From contig JAUIDY010000050.1 in the NCBI GenBank assembly GCA_030428385.1, positions 1-41,699 of the forward strand: a stretch of DNA of 41,699 nucleotides, written 5' to 3'. Of the stretch, positions 16,937 to 23,783 are shown in pieces. The DNA is from Rhodothermia bacterium (GTDB lineage Bacteria > Bacteroidota > Rhodothermia > Rhodothermales > JAAAOL01). Under the pieces are notes generated by a model, which was not told the origin of the DNA, did not search any database, and was given only the letters and a program-made list of their open reading frames with translations. The position numbers were made by a program, and so were the translations under genes. Numbering within the stretch: position 1 is the first letter of the stretch; every line of letters begins with the position of its first letter.

Positions 16937-17028
16937 GCGAAAAGCAGGATGCGTGGAACGTCAAGATCTGTGCCGCCAGCCTGGAAGGCAAGGGAAAAAA
17001 GGCCTCACCGCGTCTGCAAAAAGACGCC

Positions 17029-17072
17029 TTTGGCTAACCTTGAGGCAAACTTTAGCCATTCTGGAGGCTGCG
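17029..17072. promoter_or_regulatory. Possible 11-bp phased binding sites in the divergent promoter region
   Basis: Four consecutive 11-bp units start at 17029, 17040, 17051 and 17062 with a loose shared pattern T-T-(T/G)-(A/G)-G-(C/G)-C-A. Position 5 is G in all four and position 1 is T in all four. Winged-helix regulators of the OmpR/PhoB type bind direct repeats at this spacing. The match is weaker than the repeat array at 21592. An inverted repeat GCGTC/GACGC lies just beside it (17010-17027). Confidence 0.3.
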
Positions 17073-17150: not shown

Positions 17151-18266
17151 ATGATGATCTTCAAGCCTGTCTTCCTGCTTGCCGCCCTGCTGGTGCTGCC
17201 GCTTGCCGCTCGCGCCCAGACCGCCAACGACGGTCACCTGTTTGACCAGGGCCGCGCCATGACCGAACGCAGCCCCCGCGCCTCCGACGTGATCGATCGT
17301 ATGAAAGGCTACCTCGGGCAGTGGGACGTCGCCGTCACGACCTATCCTACCGACACCACCACGGTTACGAGCCAGGGCCAGGCCGAGGTCACCTACATGA
17401 ACCGGGGCTATGCCTACCAGGAGCGTCTGCACGTGCCCGGTTACGACGCCGAAGGCACGGCAGCCAGCATGATGTCGTTTCTATCCTTCGATCCCACCAA
17501 CAACGTATGGGCACTCGGCGAAGCGAGCAGCTACACCGAGAGCATTAGCATGTACAACGGTGATTTCGAAGGCGGTAAACTGACGCTGGGCACTGTGCTC
17601 CGGGAGCGGGGTGGCACCCAACTGACGCATTACCGCCTTACCTACACCTTTGCGGGAAGCAACCAACTCACCATCTTGCTCGAATCGTCCACGGGCAACA
17701 CCACCGCGTGGAAACCGGTGGAGCAGCGCGTGTATCAGCGCCGGACACCCTCCGACACGTTTATGGCGACCATGGACGGGTATGGCGCGGCAGCGTCCGA
17801 CCTGCCGGAAGAAGCCCACGAGTTTGACTTCTTGCTAGGCACTTGGGATGCGGTACATAACATGCTGTTTGGCGGACAATGGATCCAGTTCCCCACCAAT
17901 GCCACCGCCGTGCGGGCCCTCGGTGGTAGCGCCATCCTGGAGCATTCGTGGTTCGACCTTGACCCCAACCTGCCCGATGCGGCGACCTCCATCATTCGCA
18001 TCTACAACCGATCCATGCGCCGTTGGGAGTCGCTCTATTTGCAGAACCGGAGCAATTCTTTGCTGTTTTTCGGTGGGGCGAAAGACGGGGAGGATCTGGT
18101 TCTGCATATGTTTGAATCGCATACCGCCGACCCGCCCATCAGCCGCTTTGTCTTCCACGACATCGGCACGGATACGTACGCGTGGTACGCCCAAAACAGC
18201 ACCGACCGGGGCCGCACCTTCAACAAGACGTGGACCATCGAGTTTACCCGACGGACAGGGGAGTAG
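17151..18266 (+). CDS. Secreted protein with two DUF1579-like (lipocalin-type) domains
   Basis: 371 residues from the ATG at 17151 (MMIFKPVFLL); the frame is open upstream into the divergent regulator's antisense. A clear signal peptide ends at AARAQ. Domain 1 (about 40-200) begins MKGYLGQWDVAVTTYP and domain 2 (about 225-370) begins EFDFLLGTWDAVHNML. Each shows the G-x-W-D start and repeated beta strands of DUF1579-like small-molecule-binding barrels, so the protein is probably a tandem duplication. It has no catalytic motif. It lies head-to-head with the winged-helix/PD40 regulator (14792-16936) and is the best candidate for its target. A single-domain relative lies at 19197-19748. Confidence 0.78.
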   Translation: MMIFKPVFLLAALLVLPLAARAQTANDGHLFDQGRAMTERSPRASDVIDRMKGYLGQWDVAVTTYPTDTTTVTSQGQAEVTYMNRGYAYQERLHVPGYDAEGTAASMMSFLSFDPTNNVWALGEASSYTESISMYNGDFEGGKLTLGTVLRERGGTQLTHYRLTYTFAGSNQLTILLESSTGNTTAWKPVEQRVYQRRTPSDTFMATMDGYGAAASDLPEEAHEFDFLLGTWDAVHNMLFGGQWIQFPTNATAVRALGGSAILEHSWFDLDPNLPDAATSIIRIYNRSMRRWESLYLQNRSNSLLFFGGAKDGEDLVLHMFESHTADPPISRFVFHDIGTDTYAWYAQNSTDRGRTFNKTWTIEFTRRTGE

Positions 18267-20025: not shown

Positions 20026-21489
20026 TCACTTTGCTAACGTTGTTATCGTGTGCCAGGGGGTAAGCGGAAGATGCTGGGCTGCAGTTTGTTCAGGGTTTAC
20101 CCTTTCTCGCATCGCGGCGCGGTAGACATCGGTTGCATACGAACTGGGTTCGTCGAGGGTTTGAATGTAGTCGCCCGCCCACAGGAAACGATCCGGTTGG
20201 ACGAATGCGTTGATGGCTCCCTCACTCCCAATGCCATCGAGGGGGTAAAGCAGTAGCTTCCCGTTTGCAAACGAAGTCGCTTTTTCGACGCCCCGGAAGG
20301 AAAAGGTGACCTCACGGCGTCGTGCCTCCAACACGTCCGGCGCGCGTGTCCACGGACGCTCCACCACGCGGCGCAGCAACGACTCCGACATCGCATGCGA
20401 AACCACGGTGGCTCCTTGTGCCACCCAATAGCGCACCCCGGCAATGTGGGGCCAGGCCAGATCTGTTACGACGAGCACAATGGGTGTGTCATCGGTCAGG
20501 TTGAACAGTTGTTTGGCCCAGTCATGGTCTTGCTGTGCACGGGCTTCTCCCTGGGTGGCATCCAGGACATATAGCGTTCCCTCCAGGTAGGTGATGGCTT
20601 CGGTGTACCCTCGGTTTGCAAGGAGGTAGGTCTGTTCTGATACCTGCACAGTGTCGGGAGGAGTGGGGCGTAAGAAGGCGGGCGTTTGGTCAGGCAACGC
20701 CGGGATATGTTCATCAAGGCGCAGGGGCATCTCTTCGGAGGCAGTGGCCCACTCCATGATGCCTGTCGTGCGAAGTATTTCAGCCTCGCCATCCACCAGA
20801 CGGTTGCTGGAGAGCGGCACAAACGCGGTATCCATTTGCCACCAGGTGGCATACACGTATTCGACGTGCACCTGTCCCCACAAGTAGTGGGCTTCTTCTC
20901 GATCCAGCTTCACCGGAAAGTGGGTTTTGGGGTCAAGATACAACCGCTCGGGGCCCGTTTCCGTGGCACGTTCCAGGACAAGGCGGGGGAAATCGCGGTA
21001 CGTGCATTGCTGCTCCAGGACAAGGTGGTCGCTTTGTTGAAAATCGAAAAGCACCGCCCACGGATTCAGGTGGCGATCAGCGCCAAAAGAAAAGGGAACA
21101 GGTATCATCTGGTCGTCGCGTACCATCACGTTCTTGGTCGCATTGCGCATGACGGTCATTTCCGTGCGTCGTCCCATGCCGGGATAGGTGAGGCGCATCG
21201 TGCTGCGTTCCGTGCCGGTAGACGGATCATACAACAGGTCGTGGTCCTGCATCGCCATCAGGTAGGGCGGATAGGAACGGTCAGACTGATAGTTCTGGTT
21301 AAGGACATCGATGGTGACATAATGAAGCACCCGGTTGGCAGCATGATTGAGGCCTACGGCGTCGATCGCGTGTTGCAGCACCGCCTGGGCGTCGTGTCCG
21401 TGAACGGGCGTGCAGGCTTCATCGGTTTGTGCATAAAGTGGATGGGAGAAACAAAGCGAAACAACCAGGAAAAAGAGGAGGCGATACAT
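20026..21489 (-). CDS. Secreted metallo-beta-lactamase-fold protein lacking most metal ligands
   Basis: 487 residues from the ATG at 21489 (MYRLLFF) with a signal peptide ending at PLYAQ. Residues about 30-260 resemble the beta-rich N-terminal domain that precedes MBL-fold hydrolases in Bacteroidota. Residues about 285-450 follow the MBL fold order: VLDATQGEARAQQ, VLVVTDLAWPHIAG, VRYWVAQGATVVSH, and a final FLWAGDYIQ with Asp440. The expected THxHxDHxGG reads TDLAWPHIAG, so three of the four ligands (two His and the Asp) are replaced and only His348 remains. The later G-H-(S/T) His is also absent. It is probably a non-catalytic binding protein or has an unusual mechanism. It is head-to-head with the regulator at 21642 across 152 bp. 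Confidence 0.72.
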   Translation of the reverse strand: MYRLLFFLVVSLCFSHPLYAQTDEACTPVHGHDAQAVLQHAIDAVGLNHAANRVLHYVTIDVLNQNYQSDRSYPPYLMAMQDHDLLYDPSTGTERSTMRLTYPGMGRRTEMTVMRNATKNVMVRDDQMIPVPFSFGADRHLNPWAVLFDFQQSDHLVLEQQCTYRDFPRLVLERATETGPERLYLDPKTHFPVKLDREEAHYLWGQVHVEYVYATWWQMDTAFVPLSSNRLVDGEAEILRTTGIMEWATASEEMPLRLDEHIPALPDQTPAFLRPTPPDTVQVSEQTYLLANRGYTEAITYLEGTLYVLDATQGEARAQQDHDWAKQLFNLTDDTPIVLVVTDLAWPHIAGVRYWVAQGATVVSHAMSESLLRRVVERPWTRAPDVLEARRREVTFSFRGVEKATSFANGKLLLYPLDGIGSEGAINAFVQPDRFLWAGDYIQTLDEPSSYATDVYRAAMRERVNPEQTAAQHLPLTPWHTITTLAK

Positions 21490-21525: not shown

Positions 21526-21551
21526 CCTGTACCCACCTTCTCAGGTACAGG
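21526..21551. promoter_or_regulatory. Perfect 8-bp inverted repeat in the divergent promoter region
   Basis: CCTGTACC at 21526-21533 and GGTACAGG at 21544-21551 form a perfect inverted repeat with a 10-bp gap. It lies 37-62 bp upstream of the minus-strand gene start at 21489. It could be an operator for a dimeric regulator or a hairpin in that gene's 5' leader. Confidence 0.4.
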
Positions 21552-21591
21552 CAGCGGCATATGAACATCGTCTCTTTGCAGGGCCAAAGTC

Positions 21592-21635
21592 CTGAGAAGT
21601 CGCTGAGACTGTCCTGAAATCCGCCTGAGAACCGC
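21592..21635 (+). promoter_or_regulatory. Four tandem 11-bp CTGA(G/A) repeats just before the winged-helix gene
   Basis: CTGAG starts at 21592, 21603 and 21625 and CTGAA at 21614, an exact 11-bp period. The third base group after the core also tends to end in C/G. The array ends seven bases before the ATG at 21642. OmpR/PhoB-type winged helices bind head-to-tail direct repeats one helical turn apart, so this is a strong candidate binding site for the regulator encoded immediately downstream (autoregulation and control of the divergent gene). Confidence 0.65.
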
Positions 21636-21641
21636 GCTTTT

Positions 21642-23783
21642 ATGGAAACCAGAGAGTCCCTTCTGTCCCTGCCCGCTGAGAGCTTTGAAATGCTGGGGTG
21701 GATGGTGACGCCTGCGCTGCATCGCATGGAGCGGGGCGGAACGGTGCGGCTGCTGGAACCGAAAGTCGTGGAGGTGTTGGCGGTGCTGGCGGCACGGGCC
21801 GGGACGCCTATTACCCGGCAGGAGTTGCTGGATACGGTCTGGGCCGACGTGGTGGTGACGGATGATGTGCTGACGCGGTGTATCTCGGAGCTGCGCAAAC
21901 TTTTCGGCGACGACGCCCGCAATCCTCATGTGATTGAGACGTTGCCGCGCATTGGCTATCGCTTGCTGGCTCCGGTGCGGTGGCTGACGGACCCGTCGGC
22001 TTCTGGCGATTCATTGGGCTCGTTGCCCCTTCCTGTACCTGTACCGACGACTGCGCCCGCAGGCATCAAAAAGACAGGGCATCCTGTCCGATGGATGGTG
22101 GGGGCTGTTGTTGGTGTGCTGGTCTTGGGACTGGGCTTTTGGATGGGCAGCCTGGAGCATGAGGATTCCGCACCTGTTTTCGTATCGCCAGTGGCATTGC
22201 GGCCCCTCACCACCGATCCGGCACAAGAAGTACACGCCCGCGTGTCGCCCGATGGGGAACGCGTGGCCTATGTCAGCGATGCCTCCGGGGCGTTTAACCT
22301 CTACCTGACCGATTTCCAGCCGGGAAGCACGCCGCTACAATTGACTGATGACCCAGTGCCTGAGCGAAGCCCCGTCTGGTCGCCGGATGGTACCGAAATC
22401 GCCTTCATTCGTCAACATGAGAACGTGTGCCAGGTCCTTCGGATGCCCGCCCTCGGGGGGCCTGAAACCCTCGTCGCGTCGTGTGCCTCGGCACGCTATG
22501 CCACCCTCGACTGGTCGCCGGATGGAAGCTGGCTGGTACTGGATGATCAGATGCCAGGCGAGACAGGCACGGTGCTGCATCGCCTCGATCTTGAAACGGG
22601 GCACTTGGCTCCGTTTAACTATGACCGCACGGGCAGCCGAGGCGATTATTATCCGCAGGTCTCGCCCGACGGGACCCGGCTTTCGTTCTTGCGCAGTTTG
22701 GGCGAGGGGCAAACCGACTTGTTTGTGTTGCACCTCGCGGACGGAGAGGTGGAGCGCCTCACCACGTTGTTGCAACCGATCAGTGCGCAGGCGTGGTCGC
22801 CGGATGGTACCGCGATTTTCTTCATCGAGGTAGTTAACGGACAGCCCATGTTACGCCGCTATGATGTGGCGACGGCGACCACGACCTGGGTGCCAGTGCT
22901 CGACGTTGGCTATCGGTTGAGCATAGGCAGCGAACGGATGGTGTTCGAGCAGCGCACCGTACGGATGAACTTGTACCGTGTGGAGCAAGACGAGGTGCTG
23001 ACTCCGTTGGCCGCTTCGTCTGCAACCGATAGGTTGCCCACGTTCTCTCCCGACGGCCAGCGCCTTGCCTTTCTTTCAAACCGGAGCGGTTCCTATCAGG
23101 TGTGGGTCCGTCGGGCAGAAGGCGGCTTGCCGCAACCCCTCACGGCTTTAAACGGCGTCGTTTTTTCGCCCCCGCACTGGTCACCCGACGGCCAGCGTCT
23201 GGTGCTGACCACGTTTGAAGAAGGCCAGGCCGAGGTGTATGTGGTGGATGCGTTCGGAGACAAACCCCGTTTGCTTACCGATCACCCTTCCAATGAGGTC
23301 TATCCCAGTTTTTCAGCCGACGGACGCTGGGTGTATTTTGGCTCGGATCGGACAGGGTCGATGGAGATTTGGAAGCAGCCCGTGGGGGGCGGTGAAGCCA
23401 GGCAGGTAACAACGCAGGGTGGCCTGATGGCGCTGGAAGCGCCGGATGGGACGGCGCTGTATTATACCAAAGAAGGGGTGCCGGGTGTGTGGAAAAAGGA
23501 AGACGCGGCACAAGAGCAGTTGGTACAACCTGCCGTAGACCTTTCCATGCTAGGGCGTTGGTGGCCCAGCCCTGAGGGTTTGGTTGCTTTGGTCGAGCAG
23601 CCGTTCGAACGAACGACCCATCATCTTATCGTGACGAACGCGAGAAAGACGGACACGCTACGGGTTTTGCACGACCTTCGGGTGGGGAGCGGGAGTGCTT
23701 TTCATCCGGCAACGCAGCAACTGGTCGTCCCCCGGATCGATCACTACGAGGCCGACTTGCAGTGGATGCCTGTGCCTCATTAG
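21642..23783 (+). CDS. One-component membrane regulator: winged helix, one TM, TolB/PD40 propeller (paralogue)
   Basis: 713 residues. The winged helix spans residues about 16-112 (LLEPKVVEVLAVLAARAGT, RQELLDTVWADV, VLTRCISELRKLFGDD, VIETLPRIGYRLLAPV). A linker leads to one membrane helix at about 150-170 (WMVGAVVGVLVLGLGFWMG). The periplasmic part carries at least eight PD40 blades with WSPDG/FSPDG motifs. Architecture, length and gene arrangement match the regulator at 14792-16936, though the C-terminal sequence differs, so these are old paralogues. Four phased 11-bp repeats lie just before the start. The likely regulon is itself plus the divergent secreted MBL-fold gene. What the propeller senses is unknown. 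Confidence 0.93.
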   Translation: METRESLLSLPAESFEMLGWMVTPALHRMERGGTVRLLEPKVVEVLAVLAARAGTPITRQELLDTVWADVVVTDDVLTRCISELRKLFGDDARNPHVIETLPRIGYRLLAPVRWLTDPSASGDSLGSLPLPVPVPTTAPAGIKKTGHPVRWMVGAVVGVLVLGLGFWMGSLEHEDSAPVFVSPVALRPLTTDPAQEVHARVSPDGERVAYVSDASGAFNLYLTDFQPGSTPLQLTDDPVPERSPVWSPDGTEIAFIRQHENVCQVLRMPALGGPETLVASCASARYATLDWSPDGSWLVLDDQMPGETGTVLHRLDLETGHLAPFNYDRTGSRGDYYPQVSPDGTRLSFLRSLGEGQTDLFVLHLADGEVERLTTLLQPISAQAWSPDGTAIFFIEVVNGQPMLRRYDVATATTTWVPVLDVGYRLSIGSERMVFEQRTVRMNLYRVEQDEVLTPLAASSATDRLPTFSPDGQRLAFLSNRSGSYQVWVRRAEGGLPQPLTALNGVVFSPPHWSPDGQRLVLTTFEEGQAEVYVVDAFGDKPRLLTDHPSNEVYPSFSADGRWVYFGSDRTGSMEIWKQPVGGGEARQVTTQGGLMALEAPDGTALYYTKEGVPGVWKKEDAAQEQLVQPAVDLSMLGRWWPSPEGLVALVEQPFERTTHHLIVTNARKTDTLRVLHDLRVGSGSAFHPATQQLVVPRIDHYEADLQWMPVPH

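Follow-up and report, generated by a model that had tools for sequence, protein, structure and literature searches.

The locus and its genes

The window, which is the whole stretch of 41,699 nucleotides analysed here (contig JAUIDY010000050.1 of a Rhodothermia bacterium), carries a gene for a 713-residue regulator preceded by a four-unit array of direct repeats and, further upstream, by a divergently oriented gene (Table 1). The regulator shows Pfam matches to PF00486 (winged helix) and PF07676 (PD40 repeats). Among solved structures, the one nearest to it is that of the E. coli CadC DNA-binding domain (5ju7, E=1.7e-21), followed by ToxR and by response regulators. In the AlphaFold2 model (mean pLDDT 82.6) the chain is all-beta after the helix formed by residues 150-172, and a Foldseek search with this model retrieved TolB and other propellers. 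The initial annotation had described a one-component system with a periplasmic propeller, and both Pfam and the predicted structure support the one-component regulator and its propeller, while the periplasmic location is the one suggested by the order winged helix, transmembrane helix, propeller. The layout is that of CadC and ToxR, with an N-terminal winged helix, a single transmembrane helix and a C-terminal domain that is probably extracytoplasmic. Only the DNA-binding domain matches CadC proper; the whole-protein model NF007540 gives 82.1 bits against an NCBI cut-off of 400. No close orthologue was found in the genome collections searched, the best identity being 40%. Its genome contains 24 winged-helix domains of the OmpR/PhoB type, of which about 10 lie in long frames that resemble this one.

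The array is made of four consecutive 11-mers, TCCTGAGAAGT (21590-21600), CGCTGAGACTG (21601-21611), TCCTGAAATCC (21612-21622) and GCCTGAGAACC (21623-21633). Their CTGA cores start at 21592, 21603, 21614 and 21625, in exact 11-bp phase, and are identical in all four units, with G, G, A and G as the fifth base. The fourth unit is followed by GCGCTTTT and then by the ATG of the regulator at 21642, so that 8 bases separate the array from the start codon.

The divergent gene codes for a protein of 487 amino acids with no match in Pfam or the PDB and no homologue in the order. Its segment VVTDLAWPHIAGVRYW resembles, by eye, a metallo-beta-lactamase fold with the metal ligands lost. The same intergenic region also contains a perfect 8-bp inverted repeat, CCTGTACC-10-GGTACAGG at 21526-21551, for which the chance expectation in the window is none; it could be the site of a second, dimeric regulator.

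Table 1. Coordinates and evidence for the features of the two regulator loci in the window
Feature	Position	Strand	Evidence
Regulator of 713 aa with a winged helix of PhoB/CadC type (residues ~15-114), a disordered linker, a transmembrane helix (150-172) and a PD40 propeller region of TolB type (185-713)	21642..23783	+	Pfam, CadC structure match, AlphaFold2, Foldseek
Recognition helix of the winged helix, ~residues 74-88, DDVLTRCISELRKLF	21861..21905	+	Model helix 74-88, CadC alignment
Four-unit 11-bp direct-repeat array, core CTGA(G/A); proposed operator	21590..21633	+	Sequence, chance statistics, family recurrence
Candidate -7 element, weak: TCTCTTTG, differing from TAnnTTTG at one position	21571..21578	+	Consensus match; weak
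Divergent gene for an exported protein of 487 aa (signal peptide recognised by eye); candidate for a second target of the array	20026..21489	-	Sequence
Second winged-helix/transmembrane/PD40 regulator, paralogue ~37% identical over the matched 620 residues	14792..16936	-	Homology, Pfam
Four-unit 11-bp array of the second regulator, GCCTCCAGAAT GGCTAAAGTTT GCCTCAAGGTT AGCCAAAGGCG, CTCAAG-type core	17025..17068	-	Sequence
Gene divergent from the second regulator	17154..18266	+	Homologues divergent to winged-helix regulators in G008, G002 and G043

The array in the window and in the genome

Pairs of CTGA at 11-bp spacing occur 5 times in the window against 0.83 expected, and over all lags between 7 and 20 no other 4-mer of the window forms a four-fold in-phase run. 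Third-order Markov simulations give an expectation of 0.1 such four-fold runs over all these lags, and of 0.025 at lag 11. Together with the direct reading of the sequence, these statistics confirm the four 11-bp-phased CTGA(G/A) repeats that had been reported in front of a CadC-like regulator. The genome-wide search proposed along with them found three phased CTGA units nowhere else in the 6.19-Mb genome, and the reversed pattern, used as a control, gave none. Additional copies of the operator with up to three mismatches are at chance level (8 versus 5 in the control), with the exception of an array in front of a response regulator on another contig (C42). This latter array reads CTGAAA-CTGAAC-CTTAAA at 11-bp spacing (L175, 1500-1530), and the response regulator gene is divergent from that of a small exported protein.

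As the core was picked after the sequence had been seen, independent evidence has to come from its recurrence in homologues.

Recurrence of the phasing upstream of homologous regulators

The family considered comprises about 95 winged-helix/transmembrane regulators homologous to that of the window, drawn from Rhodothermales, Acidobacteriota, Gammaproteobacteria and other groups. For scanning, a 63-residue profile was effective, a full-length profile being too diverse. Identical 4-mers at each lag were counted in the 200 bases upstream of these homologues. A first set of 39 loci, excluding the window, gave 100 pairs at lag 11 and 64 pairs at lag 22, the remaining lags giving around 38. For 71 loci of Rhodothermales the counts rise to 182 and 147, respectively, against 77 +/- 14. 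The lag-11 excess of these 71 loci is absent both from the stretch 220-420 bases upstream and from the start of the coding sequence, and the regions upstream of 114 other genes of the same loci show none either (127 at lag 11 versus 118 +/- 34). The phasing is also displayed by 30 independent loci that do not belong to the order (Acidobacteriota, Cyclobacteriaceae, Gammaproteobacteria, Calditrichaceae and others), with 83 pairs at lag 11 versus 29 +/- 8; in this set a smaller lag-11 excess is likewise present 220-420 bases upstream (55 versus 27).

When the sets are combined into 94 non-redundant loci, again excluding the window, lag 11 reaches 249 versus 90.5 +/- 14.7 at other lags (z 11.3 relative to shuffled sequences), and the counts at lags 22 and 33 are 184 and 85. 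The period is sharp, lags 10 and 12 being close to background. The lack of an excess at lag 33 indicates that three units are typical of the family and that the four-unit array of the window is a long one. This excess, obtained with the window left out, refutes chance at the level of the family. As for the array itself, the choice of its core and lag was post hoc, which would favour a chance run picked out by eye, but given the expectation of 0.025 at lag 11 in the window and the independent recurrence elsewhere we regard such a run as extremely improbable.

Conservation, which the initial annotation had suggested checking in orthologues, holds in a family-wide form, that is among homologues rather than close orthologues. 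Arrays of 11-bp repeats are common in the family without being universal: a three-unit test applied to single loci is significant for 19 of 72 in the Rhodothermales-centred set, which includes the window, and a large subgroup with the helix TDDVLARCISELRKAL is mostly devoid of them. Where present, they vary in position, between about 130 bases upstream of the start codon and overlap with it. By eye, one gammaproteobacterial homologue (L222) has a TGAG array with a spacing of 10 bp instead of 11.

The variable placement also bears on whether the repeats could act in RNA, as a leader or ribosome-binding element. In the window they do lie in the presumed 5' leader, beside the start codon, but the arrays of homologues are often far upstream of it, and the period is that of known protein operators on DNA. 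The region of the array has an ordinary predicted fold (z 0.59) and no Rfam match, by which an RNA element was rejected; we give this reading almost no weight.

Core sequences and recognition helices

The words most frequently found at lag 11 in the family are TGAG, GAGG, CTGA and TGAT, and CTGA occurs on the sense strand at 7 loci versus 1 for its complement TCAG. Individual arrays vary around this theme. For example, L052, whose recognition helix is near-identical to that of the window regulator, has CTGA-CTTT-CTGA-CTGA, and L069 has CTGATTG-CTGACGA-CTGACCA. Others are GTGAGGTTT-TTGAGGTTT-CTGAGGTTT in L088, three copies of CTCATG in L038, and CTATCATT-CTATCAAA-CTGTCATT in L194, the last being similar to the pho box of E. 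coli. Shorter winged-helix proteins that have the helix VVSDSALTQCIK form a subgroup with TGAGCA arrays of 11-bp period, which either lie near the start codon or overlap it. The subgroup includes L192, L195, L124, L125, L127, L128 and L129, some of whose arrays were recognised by eye only.

Paralogues within one genome differ in their core (CTGAG, CTCAAG and CTCATGA). The second regulator of the window, located upstream of the first on the opposite strand, is preceded by its own four-unit array with a CTCAAG-type core. Its orthologue in G008 has nearly the same recognition helix, CTCAAG repeats at 11-bp spacing and the same divergent neighbour, and the arrays are less clear in the intergenic regions of G043 and G002. 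Across the family, similarity of recognition helices correlates weakly with similarity of operators (rho 0.20, p 0.04; p 0.08 when one clade is left out), and a recognition-helix code was rejected on account of this low correlation.

Comparison with known operators

The array shows the head-to-tail repeats and the 11-bp period of direct-repeat operators of the OmpR/PhoB type, and it precedes a PF00486 gene. M. tuberculosis PhoP binds 7-bp direct repeats with a required 4-bp spacer, three or four units being bound more tightly (PMC4832192). The likeness to this operator and to the pho box of PhoB extends to a winged helix of the same Pfam family, to the 11-bp period produced by a 7-bp motif and a 4-bp spacer, and to the possibility of binding more than two units (PMC4832192); moreover, the core in the window resembles the CTGTCA of PhoB/PhoP-type operators. 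Because the geometry matches the PhoP-type direct repeats, the array most likely serves the adjacent regulator as a head-to-tail operator, and on the sequence evidence we have good confidence that it would be bound, in the PhoB manner, by the winged helix of this protein. The claim of an OmpR/PhoB-type operator made in the initial annotation is well supported computationally, as the phasing recurs both within the order and across other phyla but not in controls, and binding is its predicted part.

The proteins themselves are less alike. PhoB and PhoP are soluble, phosphorylated response regulators, whereas the regulator of the window is a membrane protein devoid of a receiver domain. In this it is like E. 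coli CadC, which has an N-terminal DNA-binding domain, a linker, one transmembrane helix and an extracytoplasmic sensor (the side being inferred for the window protein), although the sensor of CadC is not a PD40 propeller. For E. coli CadC, a head-to-head arrangement on TTAxxxxT sites of AT-rich DNA has been modelled (PMC5430869), and such an arrangement is not found in front of the window regulator, which has CTGA(G/A) direct repeats instead. Vibrio cholerae ToxR is also a membrane-anchored winged-helix protein and binds direct repeats; its box, TNAAA-N5-TNAAT, has a 10-bp period (PMC7496328), in contrast to the 11 bp of the array. Judging from these features, the protein resembles CadC and ToxR while the geometry of its predicted operator would be that of PhoB and PhoP, unlike that of E. 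coli CadC. A survey of transmembrane regulators describes them as widespread and poorly known in mechanism, and a search of its text for these terms gave neither propellers nor binding sites (PMC10269533). In the part of the literature covered by our search, no described operator was found for regulators of the propeller class.

A real operator of this type could instead be bound by another protein, either a response regulator or a paralogue. The 24 winged-helix domains of the genome supply candidates, and the response regulator on C42 is preceded by a similar CTGAA array. Against this, the arrays recur specifically in front of the membrane-regulator family and their cores are paralogue-specific, as would be the case if each regulator marked its own promoter, and the genome has no second copy of the array. 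We consider another binder unlikely.

Proposed function of the array

If the adjacent regulator is the binder, several of its molecules would line up in head-to-tail order, each occupying a single 11-bp unit. As in PhoB and PhoP, the CTGA(G/A) core would be read by the recognition helix, and the wing would extend into the minor groove of the spacer. A signal perceived by the membrane-anchored propeller may then alter the cooperative occupancy of the array. As the latter is intergenic between divergent genes and next to the regulator start, it would probably exert feedback on the regulator, in the simplest case as a block to its transcription, and may also activate the divergent gene.

TAnnTTTG is the -7 consensus of Bacteroidota promoters. 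The sole element of this kind near the array is the weak candidate TCTCTTTG, which lies upstream of it; if it is used, the array would sit just downstream of the transcription start and would block transcription of the regulator. No sigma-70 promoter or terminator was found, a result of little information in this phylum. Autorepression, which had been proposed from the closeness of the array to the start, retains in its favour that the array adjoins the start codon and that the -7-like element is upstream; speaking against it are the variable positions of arrays in the family and the orientation of most of the genes, which are divergent from a possible second target. We consider it plausible, with slightly less than even confidence.

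CadC and PhoB activate from upstream sites, and the same operator might serve to activate the regulator, the divergent gene or both, which is a variant of the preferred explanation rather than a different operator. About 15 of the 19 family members that could be assessed are divergent from their upstream neighbour, some of these neighbours being FG-GAP proteins or tagged for type IX secretion. Several arrays of homologues lie well upstream of the start, that of L194 being upstream of a perfect TAnnTTTG, and the array of the window is at an activator-like distance, about -100 to -145, from the start codon of the divergent gene. An array ending 8 bases before the ATG of the regulator would, on the other hand, be unusual for activation, which we retain as a tentative possibility. 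Over the whole family, the position of the arrays relative to TAnnTTTG is too variable to decide between activation and repression.

Environmental bacteria possess many membrane-bound one-component regulators with propeller sensors, few of whose targets are known. The winged-helix/transmembrane/PD40-propeller class is expanded in Rhodothermales and also present in Acidobacteriota and other phyla, apparently with no described operator. We see about an even chance that each member marks its own promoter with an 11-bp array specific to the paralogue, in such a way that both a DNA code and a divergent exported target could be read from sequence. Should this hold for each regulator, one could predict without experiments its operator and its probable target, in many cases a neighbouring protein that is exported or secreted by the type IX route, and the specificity of recognition helices could be compared across many natural regulator-operator pairs. 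Membrane anchoring would then also seem compatible with head-to-tail arrays of three or four subunits in the manner of PhoB.

Finally, tandem repeats of a much longer unit were observed at one locus of the family (L120, in G002), where GCGAACCAGTCAGGCGTTGTGC-like units of about 33 bp are repeated 130-300 bases upstream of the winged-helix gene.
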